From positions 2,232,001 through 2,296,000 of the forward strand of contig NC_009445.1 in NCBI RefSeq assembly GCF_000026145.1: a DNA stretch of 64,000 nt. Reading direction: 5' to 3'. Under the pieces are notes generated by a model that was given only the letters and a program-made list of their open reading frames with translations, had not been told where the DNA came from and ran no database searches. The position numbers were made by a program, and so were the translations under genes. Shown here one piece after another: positions 12,374-33,302 of this stretch (position 1 is the stretch's first letter; the number at the start of each line of letters is the position of its first letter). This DNA comes from Bradyrhizobium sp. ORS 278 (GTDB taxonomy: Bacteria > Pseudomonadota > Alphaproteobacteria > Rhizobiales > Xanthobacteraceae).

Positions 12374-12387
12374 ATCCGGGAGCTCCC

Positions 12388-14150: not shown

Positions 14151-14932
14151 CAGGAGGCCAGTCCAGCCAATTGCTCGATGGTCTGTCCCAGCGGATCGCC
14201 GGTCATGCGCCGCAGCTCCGCCGCCATCGCGCCGAGCTCGCGGCGGACATTGGCGCGCTCGATCTCGGTGGTGGCCTGCACTGAATACGACACCGCAATG
14301 CCGATCAGCTCACCGCTCTCGCCGCTGGACAGCGCAAATCCCTGCGAGCCGACGCCCTCGATCGCCTCGTCGGCGGCCTCGGAGATGCCGGTCCGGCGGA
14401 TTTCGTTCAGCCGCGCCATCAGCTCATTGAAGTTCTGCGGCGAGTTGGCGGGCACCTTCGGATAGTTGAGCGGCACGCGGGCGCGGATCTCCTGGTCCGA
14501 CAGGCGGGCCAGCATCGCGCGGCCGTTGGAGGTGACGATCGCCGGCGTGCGCTGGCCCGGCGGGTTGACGACGCGCAGCGGGTTGGAGCCGGGCACGATG
14601 CGCAGCACGACCTGCTGATAGCCGTCGAGCACCGCGATGTAGCCGGTGTGCCCGGTGCGCGCGCAGACGTCGCGCAGCTCGCGCTCGGCAATCGCGAGCA
14701 GGTCGTCATGGGCGCGATGCAGCCGGCCGAGCTCGAAGGTGAGTAGGCCGGGGCGGTAGCGGCGGCTGTGCGGGTCCTGCTCGAGTAGGCCGCAATCGCG
14801 CAGCGAACGGAGCAGGCGGGAGGTCGAGCTCTTCGGCTTGCCGGTCAGGACCTGGACGTCGGCGAAGGAAAGGTCGGGCCGCGTGGTCGAGAAGCAGCGG
14901 AGGATGTCGATAGCGTTGGTCAGAGCGCTCAT
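14150..14932 (-). CDS. IclR family transcriptional regulator
   Basis: 260 residues. The N-terminal winged helix (ALTNAIDILRCFSTTRPDLSFADVQVLTGKPKSSTSRLLRSL) is followed by an IclR effector domain (VLRIVPGSNPLRV, SNGRAMLARLSDQEIRA, GFALSSGESGELIGIAVSYSV). It is the first gene of the leftward transporter/hydantoinase operon, so it probably autoregulates that operon, using the inverted repeat just upstream. The effector is unknown. Confidence 0.85.
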   Translation of the reverse strand: MSALTNAIDILRCFSTTRPDLSFADVQVLTGKPKSSTSRLLRSLRDCGLLEQDPHSRRYRPGLLTFELGRLHRAHDDLLAIAERELRDVCARTGHTGYIAVLDGYQQVVLRIVPGSNPLRVVNPPGQRTPAIVTSNGRAMLARLSDQEIRARVPLNYPKVPANSPQNFNELMARLNEIRRTGISEAADEAIEGVGSQGFALSSGESGELIGIAVSYSVQATTEIERANVRRELGAMAAELRRMTGDPLGQTIEQLAGLAS

Positions 14933-15085: not shown

Positions 15086-18000
15086 TCAGTGCGGGATCGT
15101 CGACCGGATGCGACTGACGGCGTCCTCGACGTCGGTCCAGGCCGGCTTGTCCGGCGCGAACTGGCCGCGAAGATAGCTGACGAGCTCGGCGAGCTGCGCG
15201 TCGCTCAGATGATCCTTGAAGGCTGGCATGTAGCCGAGGTCGGACGACGCCGGCTTCATGATGCCATGCAGGATCACCTGGATCAGGTTGTCGGGCGTCG
15301 CGCTGTGCAAATTGCTGTTGAGCGCGAGCGACGGCCGGCTGCCGAACAGCGGCAGACCGCCGACCTCGTGACAGACGGCGCATGCGCCGAGATAGAGTCG
15401 CGCGGCGGGAGACGAGGCTGAGGTGACCTTGGTTCGGGCTTCGAGATCAGAGGCTATCGCCTCCAGCTTCGCCGGCTCGGGCGAGGGCGTCTGGAAGGAG
15501 GCGAGATAGGCCGCCATCGCCCGGATATCGGCGTCGGGAAGCTTGGCGAGATCCTTGACGATCGGCGCCATCGGTCCTGCGGCCACGCCGTGGAAGCGCG
15601 ACTGGCCGGAGCGCAGGTAGGTGAAGAGCTCGTCGTCGGTCCACGGGATCGGCGCTGAAGAGAGCGCGGTGAGCGCGGGCGCTTCCCAGCCATCGGCAAA
15701 GCCGCCGGCGAGATAGGCGTTGCGCTGCTCGGCGCCGAGCGCATTGCGCGGCGAGTGGCAGGCGCTGCAATGGCCGAGACTCTCGATTAGATAAAAGCCG
15801 CGATTCCACTGCTCCGATTGGGTCGGATCGGGCTTGAAGGTTTCAGTGCTATGAAACAGCGCATTCCATCCGGCAACCAGCGGCCGCAAATTGAATGGGA
15901 AGCGCAGCTGATTGTCTGGCGATTGCTGCCGCACGGGCTGCTGCGCCATCAGATAGGCGTACAGCGCCTGCAGATCGGCGTCGCTGGCGCGCGCGAAATG
16001 CGTGTAGGGAAATGCCGGATAGAGCTGCCGGCCGTCACGATGCACGCCCTCGCGCATCGCGCGCTCGAAGGCCGGATAGGACCAGGCGCCGATGCCGGTC
16101 TCGACGTCGGGCGTGATGTTGGTGCTGAAGATCCTCCCGAACGGGGTCTCCAGCGCGCGGCCGCCGGCATTTATCAGGCCGCCATCTGAGGTGTGGCAGA
16201 CGGCACAATTGCCGAGCGCCGCGAGCACCTCGCCGCGTGCGATGGTCGCTGCGGAATAGACCGAGGGATCGGGACGGGTGATCGGTGCGATGGCGCGCCA
16301 CGGCAGCACGGCCATCGCGACGCCGATCGCCGCGGCACAGGCCGCGACCGCGCTGGCCATCACGCCACTGCGTTTGGCGAAAGGCTGCAGCCAAGTGGCC
16401 GCGGGCTTCTCCGGCGCAGGCAGCGGTTGCGGCTTGGCGGGCTCGACCTGTTCGCCGCGCAGGCCTTTCAGGATGCGTTCCGGCGTGAACGGCGGCTCGC
16501 GGAAGCGAACGCCGGTGGCGTCGTAGATCGCGTTGGCGATCGCGGCGGCGCTCGGCACCGACGCGGACTCGCCGACGCCGAGCGGCGGCTGGTCCGGCCG
16601 CGGCAGCATCAGGACGTCGATCTTCGGCACGTCGGGGAAGGTGATGATGGGATAAGCGCCCCATTCCCGTGCCGCCACCTTGCCGCGCGCAAACGGGACC
16701 TCCTCCATCAGCGCCCGGCTGGTCGATTGGATGACGTTGCCTTCGATCTGGTGGCGCACGCCGTCCGGATTGATCATCAGGCCGGAGTCCTGGCCCGCGA
16801 TCACGCGCGTGACGCTGATGTCACCCGTCGTCGTGTTGATGGCGACATCGGCGATCCAAGCCGACCACGCTGCGCCATAGCCGGGGAACTTGCTGTGCAC
16901 GTAGAGCGCGTAGGCAAAGCCGCGGCCGTGCACGACGCCATTTTCCGGCGTCTTCTCCTGCCGCACCGGTCGCGGAGTCCAGCCGGCGCGCTCGGCAACC
17001 GCATTCACGAGGTCACGCGCGCGCTCGTCCTTCAGATAGCGCAGCCGGTACTCGATTGGATCGACCTCAGCCTCGGCGGCGAGTTCGTCGATATAGGATT
17101 CATGCGCAAAGGTGTTGGGCAGCGCCGAGACGCCGCGGATCCAGGAGGCGCGGACGATCGGCGCCATGTCATGCGCCGTCACGCGCATGTGGTCGTAATC
17201 GTAAGGCGGGATCGCGGTGCGGTCGCCCATTTCGAACACGGCGGGCTCCGGCGCGACGCGGCCGGTCAGCAGCAGCGCCAGGGTCGGCGCGCCGTTCGAG
17301 GGATAGCGCGTGGCGAACTCATAGGCCGCGACGGAGCCGTCGGCATCGAGGCCGCCATTGACGTCCATCAGCTGCGCGGTGCCTTTCGGCTCCCACAGAT
17401 GCTCCTGCTCGCGCGTCAACTGCACGCGCACGGGGCGGCCGACCGCGCGCGACAGCAGCAGCGCATCGGCGGTGACGTCGTCGGCGCAATTGCGGCCGTA
17501 GCAACCGGCGGCCTCGAGCCGGATCAGCTCGATCTGGTGCTCGGGGCAGTCGATCAACTTGGCGAGATCGGCACGCAGGATGTGCGGGTTCTGCGTGCCG
17601 GAATAGATCCGGATGTGGCCGTCGCGAACGTCGGCAACGGCACAGGACGGCCCGATCGAGCCGTGCATCTGATAGGGCCAGAGATACGTCCGCCGCATCG
17701 GCTTCGCGGCCCCTGCGATGGCGGCATCGACGTCGCCCTTGTCTAGCAGTCGGCGCGGCTCGGATGGATTGGCACGCAACGCGGTCTCGACATCGTCGAG
17801 ATCGCGCAAGGTCGGCACGGGCTTCCAGCTCACCTGGAGCCGCTCGGCCGCCAGGATCGCCTGCTCCTCGCGCTCGGCGACGACGCCGATAAAGTCGCCG
17901 ATCACGACGACGTCGACCAGGCCGGGCACGTCGCGCACCGACTCCTTGTCGATGCCGATCAGGCTGGTGCCGACGAAGGGACCAGCATCGACGCCGACAT

Positions 18001-18625
18001 AAGGCGGGCGGATGACGCGGCCGTGCAGCATGCCGGGCACGCGCACGTCGTGCACGTAAGTCAGCTCGCCCGTCGCCTTCGCCGGCAGGTCGACGCGCGG
18101 CACCGAGCGGCCGACGATTTGATAGTTATCCGCCGACTTGACGGCGATGTCTTCGGCGAGCTCGAGGCGGATCGTGTCGTTGCCGATCAGCTCGCCGTAG
18201 CTGAGCACGCGATTGTCGGGACCGCGGACGAGCCCGTCCTCGATCGTCAGATCGTGTTCGGAGAGGCCGAGCTGCGCCGCCGCGCGCGCCAGCAGGAAGC
18301 CGCGCGCTTGCGCTGCAGCCTTGCGCAGCGGCACCGCGGTGATCTGGATGGTCTCGCTGGCGATCGTCGCGCCCTGATTGGGCACGACGGCGGTGTCGCC
18401 GAGCACGACCAGGACGCGGGCGAATGAGACGTCGAGCTCTTCTGCGACGATCTGTCCCAGCGCCGTGCGGATGCCGGTGCCGAGATCGACATGGCCATTG
18501 AAGGCCGAGACCTCGCCGGCCGCGGTGATTCTGATGAAGGTCTCGGAGCAGCCATCAGACATGCCGCGCGCGACGGTCAGCACGCCGCGCAGATGATCTG
18601 CCGTCACGGTGGCGCTCTCGGTCAT
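15086..18625 (-). CDS. NicB-like molybdopterin hydroxylase subunit fused to triheme cytochrome c
   Basis: 1179 residues, close to the length of Pseudomonas nicotinate dehydrogenase NicB. Residues 1 to about 740 are a xanthine-dehydrogenase-family molybdopterin domain of the isoquinoline-oxidoreductase type (GHVDLGTGIRTALGQ near the start, catalytic GVGE at about 683). A hydrophobic segment follows at about 754-775 (VMASAVAACAAAIGVAMAVLPW). Then come three heme c sites, CAVCH (~807), CSACH (~952) and CAVCH (~1081). Known NicAB hydroxylates nicotinate at C6 and passes electrons to cytochromes. The layout implies a cytoplasmic Mo domain tethered to a periplasmic cytochrome. The substrate is inferred from the hnr and enamidase neighbours; another N-heterocycle is possible. 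Confidence 0.8.
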   Translation of the reverse strand: MTESATVTADHLRGVLTVARGMSDGCSETFIRITAAGEVSAFNGHVDLGTGIRTALGQIVAEELDVSFARVLVVLGDTAVVPNQGATIASETIQITAVPLRKAAAQARGFLLARAAAQLGLSEHDLTIEDGLVRGPDNRVLSYGELIGNDTIRLELAEDIAVKSADNYQIVGRSVPRVDLPAKATGELTYVHDVRVPGMLHGRVIRPPYVGVDAGPFVGTSLIGIDKESVRDVPGLVDVVVIGDFIGVVAEREEQAILAAERLQVSWKPVPTLRDLDDVETALRANPSEPRRLLDKGDVDAAIAGAAKPMRRTYLWPYQMHGSIGPSCAVADVRDGHIRIYSGTQNPHILRADLAKLIDCPEHQIELIRLEAAGCYGRNCADDVTADALLLSRAVGRPVRVQLTREQEHLWEPKGTAQLMDVNGGLDADGSVAAYEFATRYPSNGAPTLALLLTGRVAPEPAVFEMGDRTAIPPYDYDHMRVTAHDMAPIVRASWIRGVSALPNTFAHESYIDELAAEAEVDPIEYRLRYLKDERARDLVNAVAERAGWTPRPVRQEKTPENGVVHGRGFAYALYVHSKFPGYGAAWSAWIADVAINTTTGDISVTRVIAGQDSGLMINPDGVRHQIEGNVIQSTSRALMEEVPFARGKVAAREWGAYPIITFPDVPKIDVLMLPRPDQPPLGVGESASVPSAAAIANAIYDATGVRFREPPFTPERILKGLRGEQVEPAKPQPLPAPEKPAATWLQPFAKRSGVMASAVAACAAAIGVAMAVLPWRAIAPITRPDPSVYSAATIARGEVLAALGNCAVCHTSDGGLINAGGRALETPFGRIFSTNITPDVETGIGAWSYPAFERAMREGVHRDGRQLYPAFPYTHFARASDADLQALYAYLMAQQPVRQQSPDNQLRFPFNLRPLVAGWNALFHSTETFKPDPTQSEQWNRGFYLIESLGHCSACHSPRNALGAEQRNAYLAGGFADGWEAPALTALSSAPIPWTDDELFTYLRSGQSRFHGVAAGPMAPIVKDLAKLPDADIRAMAAYLASFQTPSPEPAKLEAIASDLEARTKVTSASSPAARLYLGACAVCHEVGGLPLFGSRPSLALNSNLHSATPDNLIQVILHGIMKPASSDLGYMPAFKDHLSDAQLAELVSYLRGQFAPDKPAWTDVEDAVSRIRSTIPH

Positions 18626-19107
18626 CAGTCCAGCGCCTCGAGCGTGTAGCCGGCCGCGCGCATCGCGGCGCGCAGGATCTCGACGTGAGCACCGCAGCGG
18701 CAGAGATTGTAACGCAGCGCCTGCTTGATCTCCTCGAGCGACGGATCTGGCCGCATCGTAAGCAGCGCCTTGGTCGTCATGATCATGCCGTTAAGACAAT
18801 AGCCGCATTGCGCGGCCTGCTCGGTGATGAACGCTTGCTGCACCGGATCAGGTGCGTCGCGCGAGCCGAGTCCCTCCAGCGTGACCACGCTGCGGCCAAT
18901 GCAGCCTTCGATCGGAATGACGCAGGAGCGGGCGGCGCGGCCGTCGATCAGCACGGTGCATGCGCCGCACTCGCCGAGGCCGCAACCGTATTTCGGGCCG
19001 TTCAGGGCGAAGTCGTTGCGCAGAACATGGAGCAGGGTCGTGTCGGACGCGGCGGCGACGTCATGCGTCCGCCCGTTCACCGTCAGCCGAATCGTTGCTG
19101 GCGTCAT
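18625..19107 (-). CDS. NicA-like (2Fe-2S) subunit of the molybdenum hydroxylase
   Basis: 160 residues, the size of NicA. It holds two [2Fe-2S] sets: Cys42, 47, 50 and 62 (GCGLGECGACTVL) and Cys101, 104, 136 and 138 (CGYCLNGM, CRC). It would relay electrons from the Mo centre of the partner to the cytochrome domain; there is no FAD subunit, as in NicAB. It overlaps the large subunit by one base (TGATGA-type junction). An AGAAGGG site precedes the ATG. Transcribed divergently from the reductase operon across a 271-bp regulatory gap. Confidence 0.85.
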   Translation of the reverse strand: MTPATIRLTVNGRTHDVAAASDTTLLHVLRNDFALNGPKYGCGLGECGACTVLIDGRAARSCVIPIEGCIGRSVVTLEGLGSRDAPDPVQQAFITEQAAQCGYCLNGMIMTTKALLTMRPDPSLEEIKQALRYNLCRCGAHVEILRAAMRAAGYTLEALD

Positions 19108-19131
19108 GCCCTTCTGCCGTCTGCTATGCTA

Positions 19132-19141
19132 TCGTTAACGA
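19132..19141. promoter_or_regulatory. 10-bp perfect palindrome upstream of the nicA-like gene
   Basis: TCGTTAACGA, a perfect palindrome 25 bp upstream of the NicA-like start. It is not the same motif as the shared 16-bp site. It may be part of the promoter/operator of the Mo-hydroxylase genes; with such a short site chance is possible. Confidence 0.25.
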
Positions 19142-19168
19142 AACGGATCGCGATCGCCCGGAGCGTAT

Positions 19169-19184
19169 CGTTTGTGTACTAACA
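19169..19184. promoter_or_regulatory. Site A of a shared 16-bp operator (nicAB-like side)
   Basis: CGTTTGTGTACTAACA fits CRTTYGTNNACKAAYR, the pattern shared with two other sites in front of the reductase operon and the enamidase gene. It is 62 bp upstream of the NicA-like ATG. Probable binding site of the MarR regulator at 27126-27641 (inference). Confidence 0.55.
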
Positions 19185-19289
19185 TGCAAGTGCCACGTTT
19201 TGCGCTGCAGCGCGTGCTCGATTTCTCGTCATTGTGCAGGGCAAACTGATCGTTTATCCGGCAAAGGTGGTTTTCAGGTGCAGCGGCGC

Positions 19290-19319
19290 TTGACAGCCGG
19301 ATGAGGGGCGCGACATCAT
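19290..19319 (+). promoter_or_regulatory. Candidate sigma-70 promoter of the reductase operon
   Basis: A perfect TTGACA (19290-19295) is followed after 18 bp by CATCAT (19314-19319) as a weak -10. The operator at 19317-19332 would overlap the -10 and start point, a layout expected for repression. The downstream gene starts at 19379. Confidence 0.4.
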
Positions 19320-19332
19320 TCGTATACGAACG
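19317..19332. promoter_or_regulatory. Site B of the shared operator (reductase operon)
   Basis: CATTCGTATACGAACG contains the perfect 12-bp palindrome TTCGTATACGAA (19319-19330). It lies 47 bp before the reductase ATG. Same pattern as sites A and C. Its position inside the longest open frame is one reason for choosing the downstream start for the reductase. Confidence 0.65.
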
Positions 19333-19378
19333 AATTGCCGCGGCGGCCACGGTCCCGGCCCCAAGATGGACTCTCTGC

Positions 19379-20830
19379 ATGGTGACTGAGACGGCGAGCG
19401 ACGCTGCAGGGGACAAGATCCGCTGCGATGCCTGTCCGGTGATGTGCTACATCAAGCCGGGTGCGGCCGGGGCGTGTGACCGCTACGCCAATCAGGACGG
19501 CGTGCTGGTGCGCGTCGATCCGCACATCCTGCTGGAGCGGACGGTGTCGCATGGCGGCAAGCTGGTGCCGTTCCAGGCCAGCGGCGACTGGGACGGCAAG
19601 ATCGTGCACCAGCCGGAGCTGTTCGTCACCGCCATCGGCGCAGGCACAACCTATCCGGACTATAAGCCGGCGCCGTTCATCGTGTCGTCGCAGGTGGAAG
19701 GCGTCGACATGGTCACCGTCGTGACCGAGGGCATCTTCAGCTATTGCGGCGTCAAGGTGAAGATCGACACCGACCGCTATCTGGGGCCGGAAGCGGCGAC
19801 CGTGCGCGTCGATGGCGAAGCGGTCGGCCATGTGACGACCAGCGAATATGGCTCGCAGATGCTCTCGCTCGGCGGCGTGCATCATCTCACCGGCGGCTCG
19901 AAGAAGGAGGGGCGCGTCACTTGCGACGCGCTGATGGACCTCAGCAACCGCAAGGCGGTCGAGCTTGTCATTGATAGCGGCGCCAGCGTGATCGTGCAGG
20001 CGGGGCAGCCGCCGGTCGTCAACGGCGTCAAGGAAGAGCGCATGCGCGTCGGGTGCGGCTCGGCGACGATCGGCATGTTCGCCAAGCAGTGGAAGGGCAA
20101 GGTCGACGAGGTCGTCGTCGTCGACGATCACATCACCGGCGTGCTGTCGGAGCACCAAGCCGGCAAGCTGCTCGACATCCCCGCGACCGGCATCAAGATG
20201 AAGGGGCGGCGCTCGACGCCTGGCCGTTATTTCCAGGTCGCACAGCCGGGCACCGGCTGGGGCGGCACCGACATCTCTGATCCGCTGGCCATTCTCGGGC
20301 CGTTCGATCCGAAGACGGCGAGGCCGGGCACGACGCTGCTGATGGTGTCGACCACCGGCGAGCATGCCGGCTACTACGTGCTCGATCAAGCGCTGAAGCC
20401 GGTTCAGCGCGAGATGCCGCCGGAGCTGCAGTTCTCGGTCGAGCGCATCCAGGAGAATTGCGAGCCGGCACTGTGCACTGTGCTGTTCATGGCCGGTGCC
20501 GGCGGCTCGCTGCGCGCCGGGGTCACCGACAATCCGGTGCGGCTGACGCGCTCGGTCAAGGACGCGCTGACGCGGGTGACCTCGGGCGGCGCGCCGGTCT
20601 ATGTCTGGCCGGGCGGCGGCATCACCTACATGGTCGACGTGACGCAGATGCCCGCAGGAGCGTTCGGATACGTGCCGACACCGGCGCTGGTGGCACCGAT
20701 CGAGTTCACCATGAAACTGTCCGACTACGAGGCGCTCGGCGGCCACATGGACTATGTGCAGCCGCTCGCCTTGCTCAAGGACGTCAGCAAGGATATCCGC
20801 CAGCTGCCCTGGCCGGGGCAGGGCGCATGA
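19379..20830 (+). CDS. hnr: 6-hydroxynicotinate reductase
   Basis: 483 residues. I recognise the family named after the Eubacterium barkeri enzyme that reduces 6-hydroxynicotinate to 1,4,5,6-tetrahydro-6-oxonicotinate in nicotinate fermentation. An N-terminal Cys cluster (Cys16, 19, 23, 33: CDACPVMC...CDRY) suggests an iron-sulfur centre. The long C-terminal region (GVHHLTGGSKKEGRV, MRVGCGSATIGMF, PGGGITYMVDV) has no other domain I can name. The ATG at 19379 is preferred because the operator lies upstream of it; the frame is open 26 codons further back. First gene of an eight-gene operon; its stop overlaps the UPF0280 start (ATGA). The substrate is family-based and untested here. Confidence 0.78.
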   Translation: MVTETASDAAGDKIRCDACPVMCYIKPGAAGACDRYANQDGVLVRVDPHILLERTVSHGGKLVPFQASGDWDGKIVHQPELFVTAIGAGTTYPDYKPAPFIVSSQVEGVDMVTVVTEGIFSYCGVKVKIDTDRYLGPEAATVRVDGEAVGHVTTSEYGSQMLSLGGVHHLTGGSKKEGRVTCDALMDLSNRKAVELVIDSGASVIVQAGQPPVVNGVKEERMRVGCGSATIGMFAKQWKGKVDEVVVVDDHITGVLSEHQAGKLLDIPATGIKMKGRRSTPGRYFQVAQPGTGWGGTDISDPLAILGPFDPKTARPGTTLLMVSTTGEHAGYYVLDQALKPVQREMPPELQFSVERIQENCEPALCTVLFMAGAGGSLRAGVTDNPVRLTRSVKDALTRVTSGGAPVYVWPGGGITYMVDVTQMPAGAFGYVPTPALVAPIEFTMKLSDYEALGGHMDYVQPLALLKDVSKDIRQLPWPGQGA

Positions 20831-21714
20831 ACCGTCAGCCGCAGAGCGCGCTGTTGCCGGACCGGCGGTTGCATCTTCAGGATGGGCCGATCGATCTGAT
20901 CATCGGCGCTGATGGCGCAGAGGCCGAGATCTGCGCCGCCTATCGCGCTGCAACGGAGCGCTTCACGGGTCTGCTCGATGAGCTCTGTTCGGAGCTCTCT
21001 TATCTGCGCAGCGGCGCCGATCCGGAACTTTGTTCTCTGAAAGGTGTCGTCGCCCGTCGCATGCATGCGGCGGTGGCGCCGTTCGCAGCCGGGTTGTTCA
21101 TCACGCCGATGGCGGCTGTCGCCGGAGCCGTGGCGGACGAAATCCTCGGCGCGATGCTGAGCGCGGCGAAGCTGACGCGCGCCTATGTCAATAATGGCGG
21201 CGACATTGCGCTGCATCTGCGGGATGCCGCAACCTTTAGCGTCGGACTGATGGATCGGCCGGACAGCGCTGGAACCCTGCGCCGGATGACGCTACGCGCG
21301 AACGATGGAGTCGGTGGCGTGGCCACCTCTGGCCGGCATGGCCGCAGCTTTTCGCTCGGCATCGCCGATGCGGTGACCGTGCTCGCGCGCAACGCTGCGC
21401 AGGCCGACGCCGCCGCGACCGTCATCGGCAATGCGGTCGATCTGCCCGGACATCCAGCCGTTGTCCGCCGCCCGGCCTGCGAGCTGCAGCCGGACAGCGA
21501 TCTGGGTCATCGGCTCGTCACACGCGAGGTCGGCGATCTGACCGACGATGATATCGCAACCGCGCTGACGTCGGGCGAGCGGTCCGCGCAGAACCTGCTG
21601 GCGGCGGGCGTGATCGAAGGCGCCGTACTCCAGCTCGGCGGCGCCGTCCGCGTCGTCGGGCCGCGCTCGATCGAGATCATCAATGTGTCGCGGTTGCGGG
21701 CGGCGGCCGCGTGA
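20827..21714 (+). CDS. UPF0280 family protein (ApbE superfamily)
   Basis: 295 residues. UPF0280 (COG2122) proteins share the fold of ApbE flavin transferases, which attach FMN to Thr/Ser of target proteins. Visible features are MAAVAGAVADEILGAM, the AYVNNGGDIALHL motif (ApbE proteins have a similar N-x-GG-D loop) and VATSGRHGRSFSLGIADAVTVLA. It overlaps the reductase stop by 4 bp, implying translational coupling. A cofactor-loading role for the reductase is inference; the biochemical activity of UPF0280 is not known to me. Confidence 0.8.
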   Translation: MNRQPQSALLPDRRLHLQDGPIDLIIGADGAEAEICAAYRAATERFTGLLDELCSELSYLRSGADPELCSLKGVVARRMHAAVAPFAAGLFITPMAAVAGAVADEILGAMLSAAKLTRAYVNNGGDIALHLRDAATFSVGLMDRPDSAGTLRRMTLRANDGVGGVATSGRHGRSFSLGIADAVTVLARNAAQADAAATVIGNAVDLPGHPAVVRRPACELQPDSDLGHRLVTREVGDLTDDDIATALTSGERSAQNLLAAGVIEGAVLQLGGAVRVVGPRSIEIINVSRLRAAAA

Positions 21715-21756
21715 GCTTTGATCCATGCCGGGTTGGAACATGAGGAACTGCCGACA

Positions 21757-22341
21757 ATGAGCGCCGTCATCCGCAAGATCGTGACCGTGGTCGAGGAAGT
21801 TCGCCAGGAGATGGGCAAGACCATCTCGCCGCCGACGCGGCGCGCCGCGGCGGTGGCCGTCATCGAGAATCCCTTCGCCGGCCGCTATGTCGAGGATCTC
21901 TCGCCGTTGATCGCGATCGGCGAGGAACTCGGCGACATGCTGGCCAAGCGCGCAGTCGCGGCCCTCGGCATCGAAGGACCGGCCGCGCACAGCTATGGGA
22001 AGGCGGCGGCCGTCGGCAGCGACGGCGAGCTTGAGCATGCCGCTGCCATCCTGCATCCGAAGATGGGCGCGCCGGTGCGCAAGGTGCTCGGCAAGGGCGC
22101 AGCACTGATCCCGTCGTCGAAGAAGCGCGGCGGCGTCGGCTGCACGCTCGACATTCCCTTGGGGCATAAGGACGCCGCCTTCGTGCGCAGCCATTTCGAC
22201 GGCATGGAGGTGCAGATCAACGATGCGCCGCGTGCGGGCGAGATCATGGTCGCGCTCGCCGTCACCGACAGCGGGCGTCCCTTGCCGAGGGTCGGAGGGC
22301 TCACGGTCGCCGAGATCAAGGGCGACGACGGTCTACGATAA
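21757..22341 (+). CDS. Amino acid synthesis (AA_synth, PF06684) family protein
   Basis: 194 residues. The body (IRKIVTVVEEVRQEMG, AAAVAVIENPFAGRYVEDLSPLI, LGDMLAKRAVAAL, SYGKAAAVGSDGELEHAAAILHP) matches the poorly characterised AA_synth family. Members often occur beside heterocycle or hydantoin degradation genes. A GAGGAA site lies 9 nt upstream of the ATG. It lies 42 bp after the UPF0280 gene. The role is unknown; a hydrolytic or isomerising step on a ring intermediate is conceivable but not shown. Confidence 0.7.
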   Translation: MSAVIRKIVTVVEEVRQEMGKTISPPTRRAAAVAVIENPFAGRYVEDLSPLIAIGEELGDMLAKRAVAALGIEGPAAHSYGKAAAVGSDGELEHAAAILHPKMGAPVRKVLGKGAALIPSSKKRGGVGCTLDIPLGHKDAAFVRSHFDGMEVQINDAPRAGEIMVALAVTDSGRPLPRVGGLTVAEIKGDDGLR

Positions 22342-22367
22342 TTCAAATCAAGTTGGAGGCTAAGGGA

Positions 22368-23570
22368 ATGCAACGGAGAACGATGCTTGCGGCAGGCCTG
22401 GGCCTTGCCGTCGCGGGACTGATGGGCACGGCGCGCGCCGAGGATGTCATCAAGATCGGCGAGATCAACAGCTACTCGCTGCTGCCAGCGTTCACCGAGC
22501 CCTATCGCAAGGGCTGGCAGCTCGCGGTCGAGGAGATCAATGCGGCCGGCGGCATCAACGGCAAGAAGCTCGTCGTCGTCTCCAAGGACGACAGCGGCAA
22601 GCCGGCCGATGCGCAGACCGCGGCCAACGAGCTGGTGTCGAGCGAGAACGTCGCGATGCTCGCCGGCACGTTCCTGTCGAACATCGGCTTGGCCGTCAGC
22701 GACTTCGCCAACCAGAAGAAGGTGTTCTTCCTGGCGGCCGAGCCGCTGACCGACGCCATCACCTGGTCGAAGGGTAACAAATACACTTTCCGCCTGCGCC
22801 CTTCGAACTACATGCAGGCCGCGATGCTGGTCGAGGAAGCCGCCAAGCTGCCGGCCAAGCGCTGGGCCACGATCGCGCCGAACTACGAATACGGCCAGTC
22901 GGCCGTTGCCGTGTTCAAGAAGCTGCTGTCCGAGAAGCGGCCTGACATCCAGTGGGTCGACGAGCAGTGGCCGCCGCAGGGCAAGATCGATGCGGGCCCG
23001 GTCGTGCAGGCCGTCGCCGCCGCCAATCCGGAGGCGATCCTCAACGTCACCTTCGGCGCCGATCTCGTGAAGCTGGTCCGCGAAGGCAACACCCGCGGCC
23101 TGTTCAAGGACCGCAAGGTCGTCAGCTTCCTGACTGGCGAGCCGGAATATCTCGATCCGCTCAAAGAGGAGACGCCGGAGGGCTGGATCGTCACCGGCTA
23201 TCCCTGGTATTCGATCAAGACGCCGGAGCATGACGCGTTCCTGAAGGCGTATCAGGCCAAGTACAACGACTATCCGCGTCTCGGCTCGATCGTCGGCTAC
23301 CAGACCATCAAGTCGGCCGCCGCCATCCTCGCCAAGGCCGGCTCGACCGATGCCGAAAAGCTGATCGCGGCCGCTGAGGACCTCTCGGTGCCGTCGCCGT
23401 TCGGCGAGATCACTTTCCGCAAGATCGATCACCAGTCGACGCTCGGCGCTTTCGTCGGCAAGACTGCGCTGAAGGATGGCAAGGGCATCATGGTCGACAC
23501 CGTCTACCGCAAGGGTTCGGACTACCTGCCGAGCGATGCTGAAGTCGCCAAGCTGCGTCCGAAGGACTGA
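22368..23570 (+). CDS. Branched-chain-type ABC transporter substrate-binding protein
   Basis: About 400 residues. The signal peptide is MQRRTMLAAGLGLAVAGLMGTARA. The mature protein (DVIKIGEINSYS, VEEINAAGGINGKKLVVVSKDDSGKPADAQTAANELV) is a type 1 periplasmic binding protein of the LivJ/LivK group. The ATG follows GGAGG by 8 nt; a TTG five codons upstream is rejected because it would use up that site. Within the nicotinate-type operon it probably binds the catabolised substrate (inference). Confidence 0.85.
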   Translation: MQRRTMLAAGLGLAVAGLMGTARAEDVIKIGEINSYSLLPAFTEPYRKGWQLAVEEINAAGGINGKKLVVVSKDDSGKPADAQTAANELVSSENVAMLAGTFLSNIGLAVSDFANQKKVFFLAAEPLTDAITWSKGNKYTFRLRPSNYMQAAMLVEEAAKLPAKRWATIAPNYEYGQSAVAVFKKLLSEKRPDIQWVDEQWPPQGKIDAGPVVQAVAAANPEAILNVTFGADLVKLVREGNTRGLFKDRKVVSFLTGEPEYLDPLKEETPEGWIVTGYPWYSIKTPEHDAFLKAYQAKYNDYPRLGSIVGYQTIKSAAAILAKAGSTDAEKLIAAAEDLSVPSPFGEITFRKIDHQSTLGAFVGKTALKDGKGIMVDTVYRKGSDYLPSDAEVAKLRPKD

Positions 23571-23582
23571 TCTACTTCCTGC

Positions 23583-23664
23583 CTCCCCCGCCCGCGGGGG
23601 AGAGCGGGCGGGGTGAGGGATCTTGACGCCTGATCTACAGGTTCAGGCCGAGGACCCTCACCCC
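23583..23664. repeat. Paired hairpins between binding-protein and permease genes
   Basis: Two inverted repeats fill the 166-bp gap: CTCCCCCG (23583-23590)/CGGGGGAG (23595-23602) around CCCG, and GGGGTGAGGG (23610-23619)/CCCTCACCCC (23655-23664). There is no T-tract. Such elements after binding-protein genes can stabilise the upstream message and lower downstream expression; here the element also resembles a dispersed repeat. Confidence 0.5.
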
Positions 23665-23736
23665 ACGCTTGCGGCTCTTCACACGATCCGCGCCCCGCTC
23701 GTTCAAAATCGACGATCTCCCTCACGCGGACCGCCC

Positions 23737-25623
23737 ATGGCCTTCTATTTCGTCCAGTTCCTGACCGGCCTTGCCAGCGCGGCCTCGCTGTTCCTGGTGG
23801 CATCGGGACTGTCGATCATCTTCGGCGTCACCCGCATTGTTAATTTCGCGCATGGCGCGTTCTACATGCTCGGCGCCTACGTGGCGTTCTCGCTCACCGA
23901 GCGGCTGTCGGGCCCGCTGGGCTTCTGGGGCGGCATCGTCGTCGCAGCGCTCGCAGTGGCCGTCATCGGCGTGCTGGTCGAGATCGTGCTGCTGCGCCGG
24001 ATCTATCATGCGCCGGAGCTGTTCCAACTCCTCGGCACGTTCGGTCTGACCCTGATGGTCGAGGATTTGGTCGTCCTGATTTGGGGGCCGGACGATCTGG
24101 TCGGCCGCCGCGCGCCGGGCTTCAAGGGCGCCGTCGATTTCTTCGGCCAGAACATTCCGAGCTACGACCTGTTCCTGATCGTGCTCGGCCCCGTCGTGCT
24201 CGGGGCGCTGTGGCTGCTGTTCCAGCGCACGCGCTGGGGCATCCTGGTGCGCGCGGCGACGCAGGACCGCGATATGGTCGCGGCGCTCGGCGTCAATCAG
24301 AAATGGCTGTTCACCTCGGTGTTCGCTGTCGGCGTCTTCCTCGCCGCGCTCGGCGGCGCGCTGCAGATCCCGCGCGATGCCGTGCATCACGCGATGGACC
24401 TGCGCATCATCGTCGAGGTGTTCGTTGTCGTCGTGATCGGCGGCCTCGGCAGCATTTTGGGCGCCTTCGTCGCCGCGGTGCTGGTGTCCGAACTCAACGC
24501 CTTCGGCATCCTGATCTTCCCGACCATCTCGCTCATCCTGGTGTTCCTGGTGATGGCCGTCGTGCTGGTGGTACGGCCCTGGGGCCTGTTCGGCAGGAAA
24601 GAGGCGCCGGCGCGCCGCACGCCGGGTCTCACCGTCATTCCCTGGCGTCCCCTGAGCTCGGTCGAGCGGCTCGCCTCCCTCGTCGCGCTGGCGTTTGCCG
24701 CGATGCTACCCTTTATCGCCGGCAACTACGCGCTGACCGTCGGCTCTGAGATCGCGATCTTCGTGATCTTCGCGGCCTCCTTGCATTTCCTGATGGCGGT
24801 CGGCGGCCTCGCCTCGTTCGGCCACGCTGCCTATTTCGGCCTCGGCGCCTATGGTGTGGCGTTCCTCGCCAAGATGGCGGGACTGCCGATGATCGCCTGT
24901 CTGCTGCTTGGACCTCTGTTGGGTGCGGCGGGCGCGGCCGTGTTCGGCGCCTTTGCCGTGCAGCTCTCCGGCGTGTACTTCGCGATGCTGACGCTCGCCT
25001 TTGCCCAGATCGTCTGGTCGATCGCCTTCCAATGGGTCGCCGTGACCGGCGGCGACAATGGCATTCTCGGGCTTTGGCCGGAAAAATGGGCGGCCTCGCC
25101 GTCGCATTTCTACTGGCTGGCGCTCGGTGTTTCCGCATTCGTCGTCAGCGTGCTGCGCCTCATCACGTTCTCGCCGTTCGGCTATGCCCTGCGCGGCATG
25201 CGCGATTCGCCGCTGCGCAGCGAATCGATCGGCATCAACGGCAAGCGCATCCAGTGGACGGCCTTCATCATCGCAGGCACGACCGCCGGCATCGGCGGCG
25301 CGCTGTTCGCGTACCTGAAGGGGAGCGTCTTCCCCGACAACATGGGGATCTCGCTGTCGGTCGACGCGCTGGTCATGGTGCTGCTCGGTGGCGTCGAAAC
25401 CGTGCCCGGCGCGATCTTCGGCGCCATCGTCTACAAGGCGCTCAACATCTGGCTGGTCAGCCAGACCGACTGGTCGAAGCTCGTGCTCGGCATCTTCATC
25501 GTGCTCATCGTGGTGGTATTCCCGAAGGGCATCGTCGGCGTGGTCGAGAGCGTCATGCACCGGCGGCGCGCGACGGCGCCCAAGCCTGCCACGCTGTCGG
25601 GCAAGATGGAGGGCGCGCAATGA
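23737..25623 (+). CDS. Fused LivH-LivM ABC transporter permease
   Basis: 628 residues, about the sum of LivH and LivM. The first half starts FYFVQFLTGLASAASLFLVASGLSIIFGVTRIVNFAHGAFYMLGAY and ends near VLVVRPWGLFGRKE. The second half starts near LASLVALAFAAMLPFIAGNYAL and carries the LivM hallmark SFGHAAYFGLGAYGVAFLA. Two complete permease units in one chain would replace the usual heterodimer. The ATG at 23737 follows a weak site; the frame is open to 23623, but the extra sequence is repeat-derived. Confidence 0.85.
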   Translation: MAFYFVQFLTGLASAASLFLVASGLSIIFGVTRIVNFAHGAFYMLGAYVAFSLTERLSGPLGFWGGIVVAALAVAVIGVLVEIVLLRRIYHAPELFQLLGTFGLTLMVEDLVVLIWGPDDLVGRRAPGFKGAVDFFGQNIPSYDLFLIVLGPVVLGALWLLFQRTRWGILVRAATQDRDMVAALGVNQKWLFTSVFAVGVFLAALGGALQIPRDAVHHAMDLRIIVEVFVVVVIGGLGSILGAFVAAVLVSELNAFGILIFPTISLILVFLVMAVVLVVRPWGLFGRKEAPARRTPGLTVIPWRPLSSVERLASLVALAFAAMLPFIAGNYALTVGSEIAIFVIFAASLHFLMAVGGLASFGHAAYFGLGAYGVAFLAKMAGLPMIACLLLGPLLGAAGAAVFGAFAVQLSGVYFAMLTLAFAQIVWSIAFQWVAVTGGDNGILGLWPEKWAASPSHFYWLALGVSAFVVSVLRLITFSPFGYALRGMRDSPLRSESIGINGKRIQWTAFIIAGTTAGIGGALFAYLKGSVFPDNMGISLSVDALVMVLLGGVETVPGAIFGAIVYKALNIWLVSQTDWSKLVLGIFIVLIVVVFPKGIVGVVESVMHRRRATAPKPATLSGKMEGAQ

Positions 25624-26411
25624 GTCTCGGCGTATCGCTGCTCTCGGTCGAGGGCCTGTCGAAATCCTACGGCGGCATCCACGCCGTCCGCAACGTGTCG
25701 TTCATGCTGCAGGCCGGCGAGATCCTCGCGTTGATCGGCCCGAACGGCGCGGGCAAGAGCACCTGCTTCGACATGCTCAACGGCCAGAACGTGCCGGACA
25801 GCGGCCGCATCACCGTGATGGGGCAGGAGACCACCGGCCGCAAGCCGCGCGAGGTCTGGCGGCTCGGCGTCGGCCGTACGTTCCAGATCACCGCGACTTA
25901 TCCGACCATGACGGTGCGCGAGAACATCCAGGTCGCGCTGGTCTCGCATCATCACCGCCTGTTCGACTTCTGGAGTCCGATGATCGGAATCGACCGCGGC
26001 GAGGCCGATCGTCTGCTCGACCTCGTCGGCATGGCCGGCTATGCCGAGCGTCCTTGCGGCGAGTTAGCCTATGGCGATCTCAAGCGGCTGGAGCTCGCGA
26101 TCGCGCTCGCCAATCAGCCCAAGCTGTTGCTGATGGACGAGCCGACCGCCGGCATGGCGCCGCGCGAGCGCGTCGAGCTGATGCGGCTGACGGCCAAGAT
26201 CGCGCGCGAGCAGTCGATCGGCGTGCTGTTCACCGAGCACGACATGGATGTCGTGTTCGAGCATGCCGACCGCATCCTCGTGCTCAATCGCGGCAGCCTG
26301 ATCGCGCAGGGCACGCCGGCCGAGGTGCGCGCCAACCGTGAGGTGCAGGCGATCTATCTCGGCGAAGGCCTGCTGTACGATGCCCGGCATCGGGAGGGAG
26401 CCTCGGCATGA
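25620..26411 (+). CDS. livG: Branched-chain-type ABC transporter ATP-binding protein LivG
   Basis: 263 residues. Walker A GPNGAGKST (near residues 42-50), RTFQITATYPTMTVRENI, a divergent signature ELAYGDLKRLELAIALA in place of LSGGQ, as is usual in LivG, and Walker B LLLMDEPTAG. Starts inside the permease stop (ATGA). One of two ATPases of this importer. Confidence 0.88.
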   Translation: MSLGVSLLSVEGLSKSYGGIHAVRNVSFMLQAGEILALIGPNGAGKSTCFDMLNGQNVPDSGRITVMGQETTGRKPREVWRLGVGRTFQITATYPTMTVRENIQVALVSHHHRLFDFWSPMIGIDRGEADRLLDLVGMAGYAERPCGELAYGDLKRLELAIALANQPKLLLMDEPTAGMAPRERVELMRLTAKIAREQSIGVLFTEHDMDVVFEHADRILVLNRGSLIAQGTPAEVRANREVQAIYLGEGLLYDARHREGASA

Positions 26412-27112
26412 AGCTGTCCGTTGCCAATCTCAACAGCCACTACGGCCCCGCGCACATCCTGTTCGACATCGGGCTCGAGGTCGGCGAGGGCGAGGTGGTA
26501 GCGCTGCTCGGCCGCAACGGCGCCGGCAAGTCGACGACCTTCCGCTCGATCGTCGGCCTGGTGGCGCTGCGCGACGGCCAGATCATGTTCGAGGGCAAGG
26601 ACATTTCGAGCGTGCCGACGCATGAGATCGTCCGTGCCGGTCTCGGCTACGTGCCCGAGGAGCGGCGCATTTTTACCGACCTGACGGTCGAGGAGAATCT
26701 CGAGGTCGGCCGGCAGAAGCCGCGGCCGGGCGCGCCGCAATGGACGCGCGAGAAGCTGTACAAGCTGTTTCCCAATCTCGGCGAGATGAAGAACCGTCCG
26801 GGTGGACGCATGAGCGGCGGCGAGCAGCAGATGCTGACGATCGCCCGCACCTTGATGGGCAATCCGTCATTGGTGCTACTGGATGAGCCGTCCGAGGGCC
26901 TGTCGCCGAAGATCGTCGAGCAGATGGTCGATGCCATCCTGACGATGAAGAAGGAGGGCGTGTCGCTGGTTGTGTCGGAGCAGAACCTGCATTTCGCGAA
27001 GCTGATCTCGGATCGCGCCTACATCATCGAACGCGGCCGCATCTGCTTTGCCGGCACCATGGCCGAACTCGACGCGCGGCCCGACATCCGCGACGCCCAC
27101 CTGTCGATCTGA
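26408..27112 (+). CDS. livF: Branched-chain-type ABC transporter ATP-binding protein LivF
   Basis: 234 residues. Walker A GRNGAGKST, VPEERRIFTDLTVEENL, signature MSGGEQQML, Walker B LVLLDEPSEGLSP. Overlaps LivG by 4 bp. Partner ATPase of the importer in the reductase operon. Confidence 0.88.
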   Translation: MKLSVANLNSHYGPAHILFDIGLEVGEGEVVALLGRNGAGKSTTFRSIVGLVALRDGQIMFEGKDISSVPTHEIVRAGLGYVPEERRIFTDLTVEENLEVGRQKPRPGAPQWTREKLYKLFPNLGEMKNRPGGRMSGGEQQMLTIARTLMGNPSLVLLDEPSEGLSPKIVEQMVDAILTMKKEGVSLVVSEQNLHFAKLISDRAYIIERGRICFAGTMAELDARPDIRDAHLSI

Positions 27113-27125
27113 GGCGAGGAACCAG

Positions 27126-27641
27126 ATGGCCAAGACCGCCACGCTGAAACGGCCGGCAAAGACCGCGCCGAAGCCGGCTCCGAAGCCGGCTCCCAAGTCG
27201 GCCGTGAAGGCCGCCGCCAAGTCTGCGAAGACAAACTACGTATTGGACGACCAGATCGGCTTCATCCTCCGCCAGGTCTGGCAGCGCCACACCATGATCT
27301 TCGCCCGCGACATCGGCAGCAACCTGACGCCGACGCAATGGGCCGCGATGTCGAAGCTGGTCGAGACCGGCCCGTGCTCGCAGAATCAGCTCGGCCGCTT
27401 CACGGCAATGGACGTTGCGACGATCAAGGGCGTGATCGACCGGCTGACGGCGCGGGGGCTGACGGAGACCAGCGCGGATCCGCAGGACGGCCGGCGGCTG
27501 CTGGTCAGCTTGACCCGCGCGGGCCAGCAGCTCGCGGAAAAGACCGCGCCATTGGCGCTCGCGATTTCCAAGGAAACGCTTGCGCCGCTCGATGCGAAAG
27601 AGCGCGAGACGCTGTTGTCGCTGTTGAGCCGACTGCGGTAG
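27126..27641 (+). CDS. MarR family regulator, NicR-like candidate
   Basis: 171 residues. A Lys/Ala/Pro-rich tail (residues 1-36, with repeated KPAPKPAPK) precedes a MarR domain from YVLDDQIGFILRQVWQRH. Its winged helix has LTPTQWAAMSKL, CSQNQLGRFTAMDVATIKGVIDRLTARGL and the wing DPQDGRRLLVSLT. Last gene of the operon, 13 bp after LivF. The nicotinate regulator NicR of pseudomonads and bordetellae is a MarR protein of this general kind. With three matching palindromes in front of the three pathway units, it is the obvious regulator (inference). 6-Hydroxynicotinate would be the expected inducer by analogy. Confidence 0.8.
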   Translation: MAKTATLKRPAKTAPKPAPKPAPKSAVKAAAKSAKTNYVLDDQIGFILRQVWQRHTMIFARDIGSNLTPTQWAAMSKLVETGPCSQNQLGRFTAMDVATIKGVIDRLTARGLTETSADPQDGRRLLVSLTRAGQQLAEKTAPLALAISKETLAPLDAKERETLLSLLSRLR

Positions 27642-27661
27642 TCCAACGCGCAGAGCTCGTG

Positions 27662-27755
27662 GGGTGGGCAAAGCGAAGCGTGCCCACCATTCTCACCAGG
27701 ACCGCATCTGCCAACGGTGGGCACGCGCCGCCTGACGGCGCCGCTTTGCCCACCC
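27662..27755. repeat. Dispersed inverted repeat, GGGTGGGCAAAGCG type
   Basis: Arms GGGTGGGCAAAGCG (27662-27675) and CGCTTTGCCCACCC (27742-27755) flank an internal GTGCCCACC/GGTGGGCAC pair. A second copy is near 63352-63490. First of three different repeat elements packed in the 482-bp gap between the MarR and enamidase genes. Confidence 0.65.
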
Positions 27756-27791
27756 TACGGTTTTGGTTCGCGGTAGCAACCAGACTCACCG

Positions 27792-27867
27792 CGTCATTGC
27801 GAGCGCAGCGAAGCAATCCAGCGCGTCACACACGACTCTGGATTGCTTCGCTGCGCTCGCAATGACG
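27792..27867. repeat. 30-bp perfect inverted repeat (GAGCGCAGCGAAGCAATCC type)
   Basis: A perfect 30-bp arm at 27792-27821 (starting CGTCATTGCGAGCGCAGCG) is mirrored at 27838-27867 with a 16-nt spacer. A 26-bp copy is at 61056-61128. This family is frequent in Bradyrhizobium genomes. It lies between convergent genes and could fold as a strong bidirectional terminator, although no T-tract is present. Confidence 0.75.
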
Positions 27868-27933
27868 GTGAGGCGATGGTTTCGCGCACTCACATCATGC
27901 GAGATTGCGTATGCAGGAGCGGCAAACTCTGCT

Positions 27934-28054
27934 GTCGTCCCGGCCTTGAGCCGGGATCAGAGCCACAGGGTGTCGTTTGGGGCAGGCGCGTCATTGACGT
28001 CGCGCCCACCACGACCGCCGGGGAGTATGGGTCCCGGCTCGAGGCCGGGACGAC
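27934..28054. repeat. Dispersed inverted repeat, GTCGTCCCGGC type
   Basis: Arms at about 27934-27956 (GTCGTCCCGGCCTTGAGCC...) and 28032-28054 (...GAGGCCGGGACGAC). Related copies lie at 49312-49440 and 63160-63311. No coding content is seen. It ends 70 bp before the enamidase stop codon. Confidence 0.65.
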
Positions 28055-28123
28055 ACCGTTGGTGTTGAGCGAGCTAGGAACGCTCACCGCCGCGCCCACA
28101 AAGACGGCGCAGCGATCGGCGAC

Positions 28124-29320
28124 CTACTTTGCCACGATCTCCGGGATCTTCGTCGCGGGCGGCGTATTGCGGCTGCGCTGGGTGCGGACGACGCCGTCGA
28201 TGATGGTCATGCCGATGCCGGGGAGGTCGCCGAGCTGGACGCTGTCGAGCAGCGTCTTGGCCGGCGAGTGCTGCGCCTTGTCCATGATCACGAAATCGGC
28301 GGAGCGGCCGATCTCGATCAGGCCGCAATCGAGCTCGCGCATCCGCGCGGTGTTGCCGGTGGCGAAGCAGAAGGCGATCTCGGCGGGCACGTCGCCGAGC
28401 GAGGACAGCAGCGACACCATGCGCAGGATGCCGAGCGGCTGCACGCCGGAGCCGGCGGGCGCGTCGGTGCCAAGGATGACGCGGTTGAGCTCGTTCATTT
28501 CGCGCGCGGTGCGCAGGGTGAACAGCGCCGAGCGCTCATTGCCGTTATGGACGAGTTCGAGTCCGGCCTTGCAGCCCTCGCAGATGCAGCGGATCTGGTC
28601 GTCGGGCAGGGCGGTGTGGCCACCATTGATGTGCCCGACGACGTCGGTGCCGGCCTCCAGCACGACGTCCTTGTCGATCAGGCCGGAGCCGGGGATCGAC
28701 GGGCCGCCGGTGTGGATCGTGCTCTGGATGCCGTATTTGCGCGCCCAGCCGACCATCTTGCGCGCGGTCGGGCCGTCCTTCACCCCGCCGAGGCCGACCT
28801 CGCCGAGCAGCTTGACGCCGGCGGCGGCCAGCTCCTTGAAATCGTCCTCGACCATCTCGCATTCGATGACCGGTGCGCCAGCGTGAACCTTCACCCCGCC
28901 GGGGCGCAGCGTCCAGAACGCGCGCTGCGCGAAGATCGCCATTGCCTTCAAGCCGACGACGTCGCGCGGACGGCCGGGCATGTGCACCTCGCCGGCCGAG
29001 ATCATGGTGGTGACGCCGCCATGCAGGTAGGAGTCGATCCAGTTGATCTGGTTCTGCCGAGGCGTCCAGTCGCCGGCGACGGGGTGGACGTGGCTGTCGA
29101 TCAAGCCCGGTGCGACGGTCGTGCCATGCGCGTCGACAATAGTCGTCGCGCCCGAGGTGTCGACGTCCTTGAGGCGGCCGATGGCGGTGATCTTGCCATT
29201 CTCGGCGACGATCGTGTCGGCATCCAGGATCGGCCGCTCCAGCGCTCCGGACAGCATCAGGCCGATGTTGCGGATGACCAGCTTGCTGGGACCGGTCGCT
29301 TGCGGCGCGTCATGAGCCAT
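28124..29320 (-). CDS. Enamidase (1,4,5,6-tetrahydro-6-oxonicotinate hydrolase)
   Basis: 398 residues of the amidohydrolase superfamily. It closely follows the Eubacterium barkeri enamidase along its length: THVHP-like SHVHP (His77, His79), GGVTTMISAGEVHMPGRPRD (101-120), GVKVHAGA, GEVGLG (Glu174), HTGGPSIPGS (His203), VGHINGG (His230), GTDAPAGSG (Asp286), and the near-terminal DLPGIGMTIIDG and RSRNTPPA. That enzyme opens tetrahydro-oxonicotinate to 2-formylglutarate and ammonia, using a binuclear metal site formed by these His/Glu/Asp residues. An AGAAGGA site fixes the start. Operator site C lies 73 bp upstream. Convergent with the reductase operon. Confidence 0.82.
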   Translation of the reverse strand: MAHDAPQATGPSKLVIRNIGLMLSGALERPILDADTIVAENGKITAIGRLKDVDTSGATTIVDAHGTTVAPGLIDSHVHPVAGDWTPRQNQINWIDSYLHGGVTTMISAGEVHMPGRPRDVVGLKAMAIFAQRAFWTLRPGGVKVHAGAPVIECEMVEDDFKELAAAGVKLLGEVGLGGVKDGPTARKMVGWARKYGIQSTIHTGGPSIPGSGLIDKDVVLEAGTDVVGHINGGHTALPDDQIRCICEGCKAGLELVHNGNERSALFTLRTAREMNELNRVILGTDAPAGSGVQPLGILRMVSLLSSLGDVPAEIAFCFATGNTARMRELDCGLIEIGRSADFVIMDKAQHSPAKTLLDSVQLGDLPGIGMTIIDGVVRTQRSRNTPPATKIPEIVAK

Positions 29321-33127: not shown

Positions 33128-33302
33128 GCGGTCTCGCAGAAATCAATGCGCCAAGATCTTAATGCACTGCATCAGAGTCGCAACGACGGTGCTGCGTGGG
33201 CGCCGTTGGCACAAAGTCTCATTCTTCGAGAGCCAGCCTTGCCGGTTTTGGGGACAAGGCGCATGCTGACGGCAACTACAAACAGATTTGGGGAGGCAGA
33301 CC

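Follow-up and report, generated by a model that had tools for sequence, protein, structure and literature searches.

A predicted nicotinate catabolic gene cluster in Bradyrhizobium sp. ORS 278 and candidate roles for its UPF0280 and PF06684 proteins

What does a bacterium degrade with a NicAB-type hydroxylase encoded beside relatives of two enzymes of Eubacterium barkeri, 6-hydroxynicotinate reductase (HNR) and enamidase, and what do the proteins encoded between these two contribute? This question is raised by a stretch of 64,000 nucleotides from Bradyrhizobium sp. ORS 278 (NC_009445.1, positions 2,232,001 to 2,296,000), here called the window. Between the HNR and enamidase genes lie genes for a UPF0280 protein, an AA_synth protein, a Liv-type ATP-binding cassette (ABC) transporter and a MarR regulator, all on the + strand (20827-27641). 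Family scans (Pfam, NCBIfam) covered ten open reading frames (ORFs) of the window, and the features of the cluster are as follows.

15086..18625, - strand: NicB-type molybdopterin large subunit, 1179 amino acids, with a three-haem cytochrome c tail (Pfam MoCoBD_1, MoCoBD_2, Cytochrom_C; CxxCH motifs)
18625..19107, - strand: NicA-type 2Fe-2S subunit, 160 amino acids (Fer2, Fer2_2)
19379..20830, + strand: 6-hydroxynicotinate reductase (HNR), 483 amino acids (NCBI names of several close relatives; invariant Cys motif)
20827..21714, + strand: UPF0280 (PF27030) protein with an ApbE-like fold, candidate HNR maturation or partner protein (NF003322, 426.9 bits; cut-off 290)
21757..22341, + strand: AA_synth (PF06684/DUF1185), paralogue type 1 (PF06684, 249.8 bits, cut-off 27; PDB 2qtp, 278.7 bits; tree)
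22353..23570, + strand: periplasmic binding protein of the Liv-type ABC transporter, putative nicotinate uptake (Peripla_BP_6)
23737..25623, + strand: fused Liv-type permease (ORF; position conserved; named by eye)
25620..26411, + strand: ABC ATPase, LivG-like (ORF; position conserved; named by eye)
26408..27112, + strand: ABC ATPase, LivF-like (ORF; position conserved; named by eye)
27126..27641, + strand: MarR-family regulator (MarR family match)
28124..29320, - strand: enamidase, 398 amino acids (PDB 2vun, full length, E 3.9e-109)

Our results indicate that this cluster in all likelihood serves the uptake and catabolism of nicotinate (vitamin B3). A preliminary description, made from the sequence alone, had noted a close match to the E. 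barkeri enamidase, and this was borne out: the protein aligned with 2vun over residues 12-395 with 368.5 bits, the next PDB chain reaching 28.7 bits. Nor is it closer to imidazolonepropionase, as HutI scored 38.8 bits versus 368.5 for 2vun, and the best NCBIfam match of any kind was 40.2 bits. The stretches DSHVH, GEVGLG, HTGG, HINGG and DAP, which we take to be metal or active-site stretches of enamidase, align with 2vun. In other Bradyrhizobium genomes, the UPF0280, AA_synth, Liv-type transporter and MarR genes recur with the catabolic genes in the same order. Because the enamidase matches 2vun over its full length and this gene order recurs, the cluster is not a product of chance.

The same description had named a two-subunit molybdenum hydroxylase with a triheme tail, and PF02738, PF20256, the cytochrome c tail and the 2Fe-2S subunit confirm it. 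NicB carries CxxCH at residues 807, 953 and 1082 and, judged by eye, a membrane helix; the pair thus has the NicAB anatomy of a 2Fe-2S subunit and a molybdenum subunit with three c-haem motifs. Among 32 matches to NicB in its own genome, no other single match covers both the molybdenum part and the tail. An HNR-family gene at 19379-20830 had also been proposed, in agreement with the NCBI names: several close relatives are called 6-hydroxynicotinate reductase, others ‘hypothetical’ or of ‘unknown function’. In an alignment of 39 HNR sequences, the motif C16-x2-C19-x3-C23-x9-C33 is invariant (39/39); seven cysteines are invariant, and an eighth is kept in 38 of the 39. Judging by sequence, the C-x2-C-x3-C-x9-C motif would be enough for one 4Fe-4S cluster. 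The E. barkeri enzyme contains one 2Fe-2S and two 4Fe-4S clusters, a content that needs more than the four motif cysteines, so either the two enzymes may differ or this content may be given wrongly. At one locus (L021, L022; G016:C1:2969817-2971186) HNR matched as two overlapping pieces, which suggests a frameshift or a sequencing error.

What was observed is which genes are present, to which families they belong and that they stay linked in relatives; from this we infer for this organism every substrate, the transporter ligand, the HNR electron donor, and the roles of the regulator and of the UPF0280 and AA_synth proteins. The Liv-type transporter would import nicotinate, which NicAB would convert to 6-hydroxynicotinate, its c-haem tail handing the electrons on to the respiratory chain. 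HNR would then reduce the ring to 1,4,5,6-tetrahydro-6-oxonicotinate (THON), enamidase would hydrolyse THON to 2-formylglutarate and ammonia, and the MarR protein would control expression. For 2-formylglutarate we expect decarboxylation and a further route via glutarate, the course reported for Azorhizobium. Within this scheme, UPF0280 might act as an HNR maturation or partner protein, and AA_synth in enamine hydrolysis or 2-formylglutarate decarboxylation. The sequence from nicotinate through 6-hydroxynicotinate and THON to 2-formylglutarate, already put forward in the preliminary description, fits the gene content, and this chemistry is very probably right. A cluster of this kind is present in strain SG-6C, which breaks down both nicotinate and 6-hydroxynicotinate, the latter appearing transiently from nicotinate (PubMed Central, PMC, number PMC3511419), and the THON and 2-formylglutarate steps are stated for E. 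barkeri and Azorhizobium (PMC9304392).

Several points weigh against this interpretation. HNR has no match to any curated family in Pfam or NCBIfam and no sequence match in the PDB; it is identified in this window by the names of its relatives, and the figure of 42% for likeness to the E. barkeri protein belongs to the HNR of SG-6C (PMC3511419). NicB sits in a large superfamily, its likeness to Pseudomonas putida NicAB resting on anatomy. We noticed no gene for a ferredoxin or other electron donor to HNR among the cluster genes. In SG-6C, no metabolite beyond 6-hydroxynicotinate was detected (PMC3511419). As to the fold of HNR, an AlphaFold model built from 39 close sequences reached a predicted local distance difference test score (pLDDT) of only 65.1 and matched nothing in the PDB at E <0.001, and a search with a profile of 39 rows returned just two PDB matches, both weak (E 0.087 and 0.61).

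We assessed the conservation of the cluster in two samples. In the first, a survey of related loci, at least 595 stretches matched, 593 of which encode an HNR relative; the best 80, a set heavy in Bradyrhizobium, were kept and their gene content was scored by tblastn. Many of these 80 are cut by contig ends, and 54 are longer than 20 kb. The second comprised 299 Pseudomonadota genomes, from which 20 HNR loci with their neighbourhoods were obtained. HNR was present in 21 of the 299 genomes; since these belong to 8 genera, the number of independent events is below 21. Of these genomes, 11 carry enamidase at 64% identity or more, against none of the 278 others; two HNR-less genomes have a 42% relative. 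Among the best 80 loci, enamidase was matched in 43 and the MarR regulator in 57; relatives of this regulator are annotated NicR in two plasmid loci (L123, L124).

The UPF0280 gene closely follows HNR in its distribution. NF003322 scored above its cut-off in 21 of the 299 genomes, exactly the 21 with HNR, and below it in one further genome (G293). UPF0280 was found in 78 of the best 80 loci (not in L084 or L106), on the same strand as HNR in all 78 and starting within 400 bp of it in 77. The database entry for the window protein has 281 amino acids, so its start may lie later than 20827. Its structural model (pLDDT 90.5) matched 2o34 and then ApbE transferases in Foldseek, with E values of 3.7e-05 to FmnB and 6.5e-05 to P. 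stutzeri ApbE. Two residues, Ser168 and Asp194, do not vary among 34 UPF0280 sequences and are equated with ApbE Ser241 and Asp285 by motif position only. One protein (P0065) joins HNR and UPF0280 in a single frame, which might point to a functional link; being one sequence on one contig and possibly an assembly effect, it was not used.

Might UPF0280, then, be an ApbE-type flavin mononucleotide transferase that flavinylates HNR? The ApbE-like fold, the co-occurrence in the same 21 genomes and the tight one-strand pairing at 77 of 78 loci would agree with such a role, as would the covalent flavin that Alhapel is said to have described in E. barkeri HNR in 2006. In addition, a sequence close to the target motif, D-x-x-[ST]-G-[AV]-x-[ST], is present in all 39 HNRs; however, this relaxed form was picked after the data had been seen, and 1.1% of shuffled versions of one HNR contain it. 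The target motif as published, D-x-x-[ST]-G-A-[ST] (PMC12052999), occurs in none of the 39. The conserved catalytic histidine of ApbE, His257 in the V. cholerae protein (PMC12052999), has no conserved counterpart at UPF0280 residues 160-203 across the 34 sequences, as judged by sequence position; columns 16, 130 and 209 hold His in 30 of them. The Foldseek template modelling (TM) scores to ApbE are also modest (0.35-0.50). Our searches of the open-licence PMC literature found no mention of UPF0280, and nothing on covalently bound flavin together with hydroxynicotinate. We thus regard flavinylation by UPF0280 as conceivable but doubtful; rather than being a classical transferase, the protein may bind or deliver flavin, or partner HNR.

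HNR itself is accompanied by different enzymes in different bacteria. Among the 54 related loci longer than 20 kb, NicB at 50% identity or more was found in 37, a hydroxylase of the flavin adenine dinucleotide (FAD) type in 13 and neither in 4; the FAD type consists of a fused FeS-Mo subunit and an FAD subunit, according to the Pfam matches of one example. In these same 54 loci, enamidase was matched in 39, HyuA in 5 and neither in 10. The 20 loci of the genome survey comprise 5 with enamidase, 6 with HyuA or HyuB and 9 with neither. Five of these nine genomes carry enamidase elsewhere (G287, G217, G200, G123, G194); the other four (L028, L029, L031, L035) have neither enamidase nor HyuA or HyuB at the HNR locus and no enamidase elsewhere. 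HyuA and/or HyuB lie near HNR in 6 of the 20 genome-survey loci, 5 of the best 80 and both plasmid loci, and none of these stretches has enamidase (L032, L033, L036, L038, L039, L040, L110, L116, L118, L121, L122, L123, L124). Hydroxylase and putative ring opener are swapped between clades around one HNR core, an exchange that would aid the annotation of many genomes. The ‘hybrid’ label of the preliminary description accordingly holds for this clade and fails for others, where the HNR core pairs with the FAD-type hydroxylase. Beside HNR, that hydroxylase replaces NicAB in L027, L031, L083, L092, L101, L105 and others, and also in Acidobacteriota.

The HyuA of L124 has as its best match the caprolactamase subunit CapA (480 bits, below the 1000-bit cut-off), and CapA-type caprolactamase is presumably an ATP-dependent lactam hydrolase. 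Because THON is a lactam, replacement of enamidase by HyuAB is plausible, HyuAB being a possible non-orthologous substitute in the ring-opening step.

This exchange also bears on a second alternative, that the cluster degrades another N-heterocycle by means of a hydroxylase, a reductase and an amidohydrolase of shifted specificity. NicB-like proteins are many and varied (matches in 1142 plasmid records, 1129 of them below 60% identity), and the HNR core is paired with several hydroxylases and ring openers. The enamidase of the window, however, is full-length and far nearer 2vun than any other PDB chain; 9 of the 20 genome-survey loci have, close to HNR, an isochorismatase-family gene that looks nicotinamidase-like by eye (8 of the 9 from one genus); and both nicotinate and 6-hydroxynicotinate are used by SG-6C, which has a cluster of this kind (PMC3511419). 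We consider another substrate improbable and retain nicotinate.

The distribution of AA_synth extends beyond HNR. PF06684 was found in 41 of the 299 genomes, namely 20 of the 21 HNR genomes and 21 others; the source genome has a single match. A tree of 114 rows separated two paralogue groups, with support of 100/100 for type 2 and a moderate 91/87 for type 1, and among the best 80 loci type 1 was matched in 72 and type 2 in 34. Each of two tandem pairs holds one copy of each type, and in G123 and G194 the enamidase, apart from HNR, adjoins such a pair. A second paralogue stands in tandem between UPF0280 and AA_synth in L073, L076, L083 and others; no such second copy appeared at the HNR loci of Bradyrhizobium. 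We dropped the rule that type 1 goes with enamidase and type 2 with HNR, as both types occur at Rhizobium HyuAB loci that lack enamidase, and type 1 is the sole type at the Bradyrhizobium HNR loci. AA_synth is likewise found in HNR loci that have the caprolactamase-like HyuAB instead of enamidase.

The 21 HNR-less genomes contain 23 AA_synth loci. Matches to a luciferase-like monooxygenase, an aldehyde dehydrogenase and an alpha/beta hydrolase were present in 11; 2 had the hydrolase, the aldehyde dehydrogenase and a flavin reductase with no monooxygenase match, 2 directly adjoin an enamidase relative, and 8 have none of these neighbours. Eight further copies lie away from HNR in HNR genomes, 2 of the monooxygenase kind (L155, L156) and 6 not. 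Loci of the monooxygenase kind, we assume, resemble trigonelline clusters. Enamide hydrolysis in both settings should give a 2-formyl-dicarboxylate that needs to lose CO2 to become a semialdehyde, and from this we draw a tentative proposal: that PF06684 is not amino-acid biosynthetic and acts in enamine hydrolysis and/or 2-formyl-dicarboxylate decarboxylation after ring opening of pyridine-derived enamides. Decarboxylation would convert 2-formylglutarate to glutarate semialdehyde here; in trigonelline clusters, the substrate would be 2-formylsuccinate and the product succinate semialdehyde. UPF0280, on this reading, would serve HNR specifically, either in its maturation or as its partner. If true, AA_synth would be the missing step joining an E. 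barkeri-type front end to the Azorhizobium glutarate back end. The TgnE-dependent oxidation of succinate semialdehyde is stimulated by TgnF; for HcdD, a relative of TgnF, no such effect was detectable (PMC7913881).

Counting against this role, type 1 is missing from 8 of the best 80 loci (some of them cut short), G139 is an HNR genome without PF06684, and one aldehyde dehydrogenase query (E 1e-40) matched only 1 of the best 80 loci (L120, 36%). The amino-acid role implied by the Pfam name, argued by Bakolitsa 2010 from a BCM-like fold and neighbouring branched-chain amino-acid transport genes (PMC2954203), is very unlikely: AA_synth here adjoins a Liv-type transporter within a nicotinate cluster, so that such neighbours need not mean amino-acid metabolism, PF06684 occurs in nearly all HNR genomes (20/21), and 13 of the 23 HNR-less loci have the hydrolase and aldehyde dehydrogenase (11 also the monooxygenase), 2 more lying beside an enamidase relative and 8 showing neither. 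The Pfam name may rest on transporter neighbours that need have nothing to do with amino acids. One of the two structures behind that label, PDB 2qtp (SPO0826), is a close relative of the window protein (278.7 bits), and the transporter neighbours of SPO0826 may concern another substrate.

How new is this cluster? Genes for the first three enzymes were reportedly noted in nine Proteobacteria by Alhapel in 2006. The suggestion in the preliminary description that the gene set was perhaps not known is contradicted by Shettigar 2012 (PMC3511419), which reports a nicotinate cluster from Azorhizobium as well as from Bradyrhizobiaceae and lists it for Azorhizobium caulinodans, B. japonicum USDA110, R. 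palustris HaA2 and SG-6C; the gene set is therefore already known in related bacteria. That cluster shares the first three pathway steps, a putative nicotinate ABC transporter and two conserved unknown proteins, and no difference is apparent in its figure legend and text (PMC3511419). As such, the cluster confirms a known pathway, an ordinary discovery and a sound annotation. The remaining interest would lie in giving two widespread but functionally unassigned families, UPF0280 (NF003322) and PF06684, a function that can be tested.

Eubacterium barkeri differs in its four-subunit, selenium-containing nicotinate dehydrogenase and its non-decarboxylating route after 2-formylglutarate. The likeness to its fermentation lies in the HNR and enamidase steps (PMC9304392). 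With the P. putida nic cluster the window shares a NicAB-type hydroxylase, by anatomy, and a MarR-type regulator. The route after 6-hydroxynicotinate in that cluster, described by Jimenez in 2008, is said to be oxidative. Trigonelline (tgn) clusters differ in their oxidative ring opening via a luciferase-like monooxygenase and a flavin reductase. They have in common a PF06684 protein, TgnF being called a homologue of the DUF1185-type HcdD (PMC7913881).

Next to NicB, at 10224-14932 of the window, lie genes for an IclR regulator and for an ABC transporter that by eye is of the polyamine type. Among the best 80 related loci, this pair stands in the corresponding place only in L043 and L044, and it probably lies outside the nicotinate system. 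Finally, a second amidohydrolase, of the EF_0837/PRK09237 kind, is encoded at 33288-34580, about 4 kb past the enamidase.

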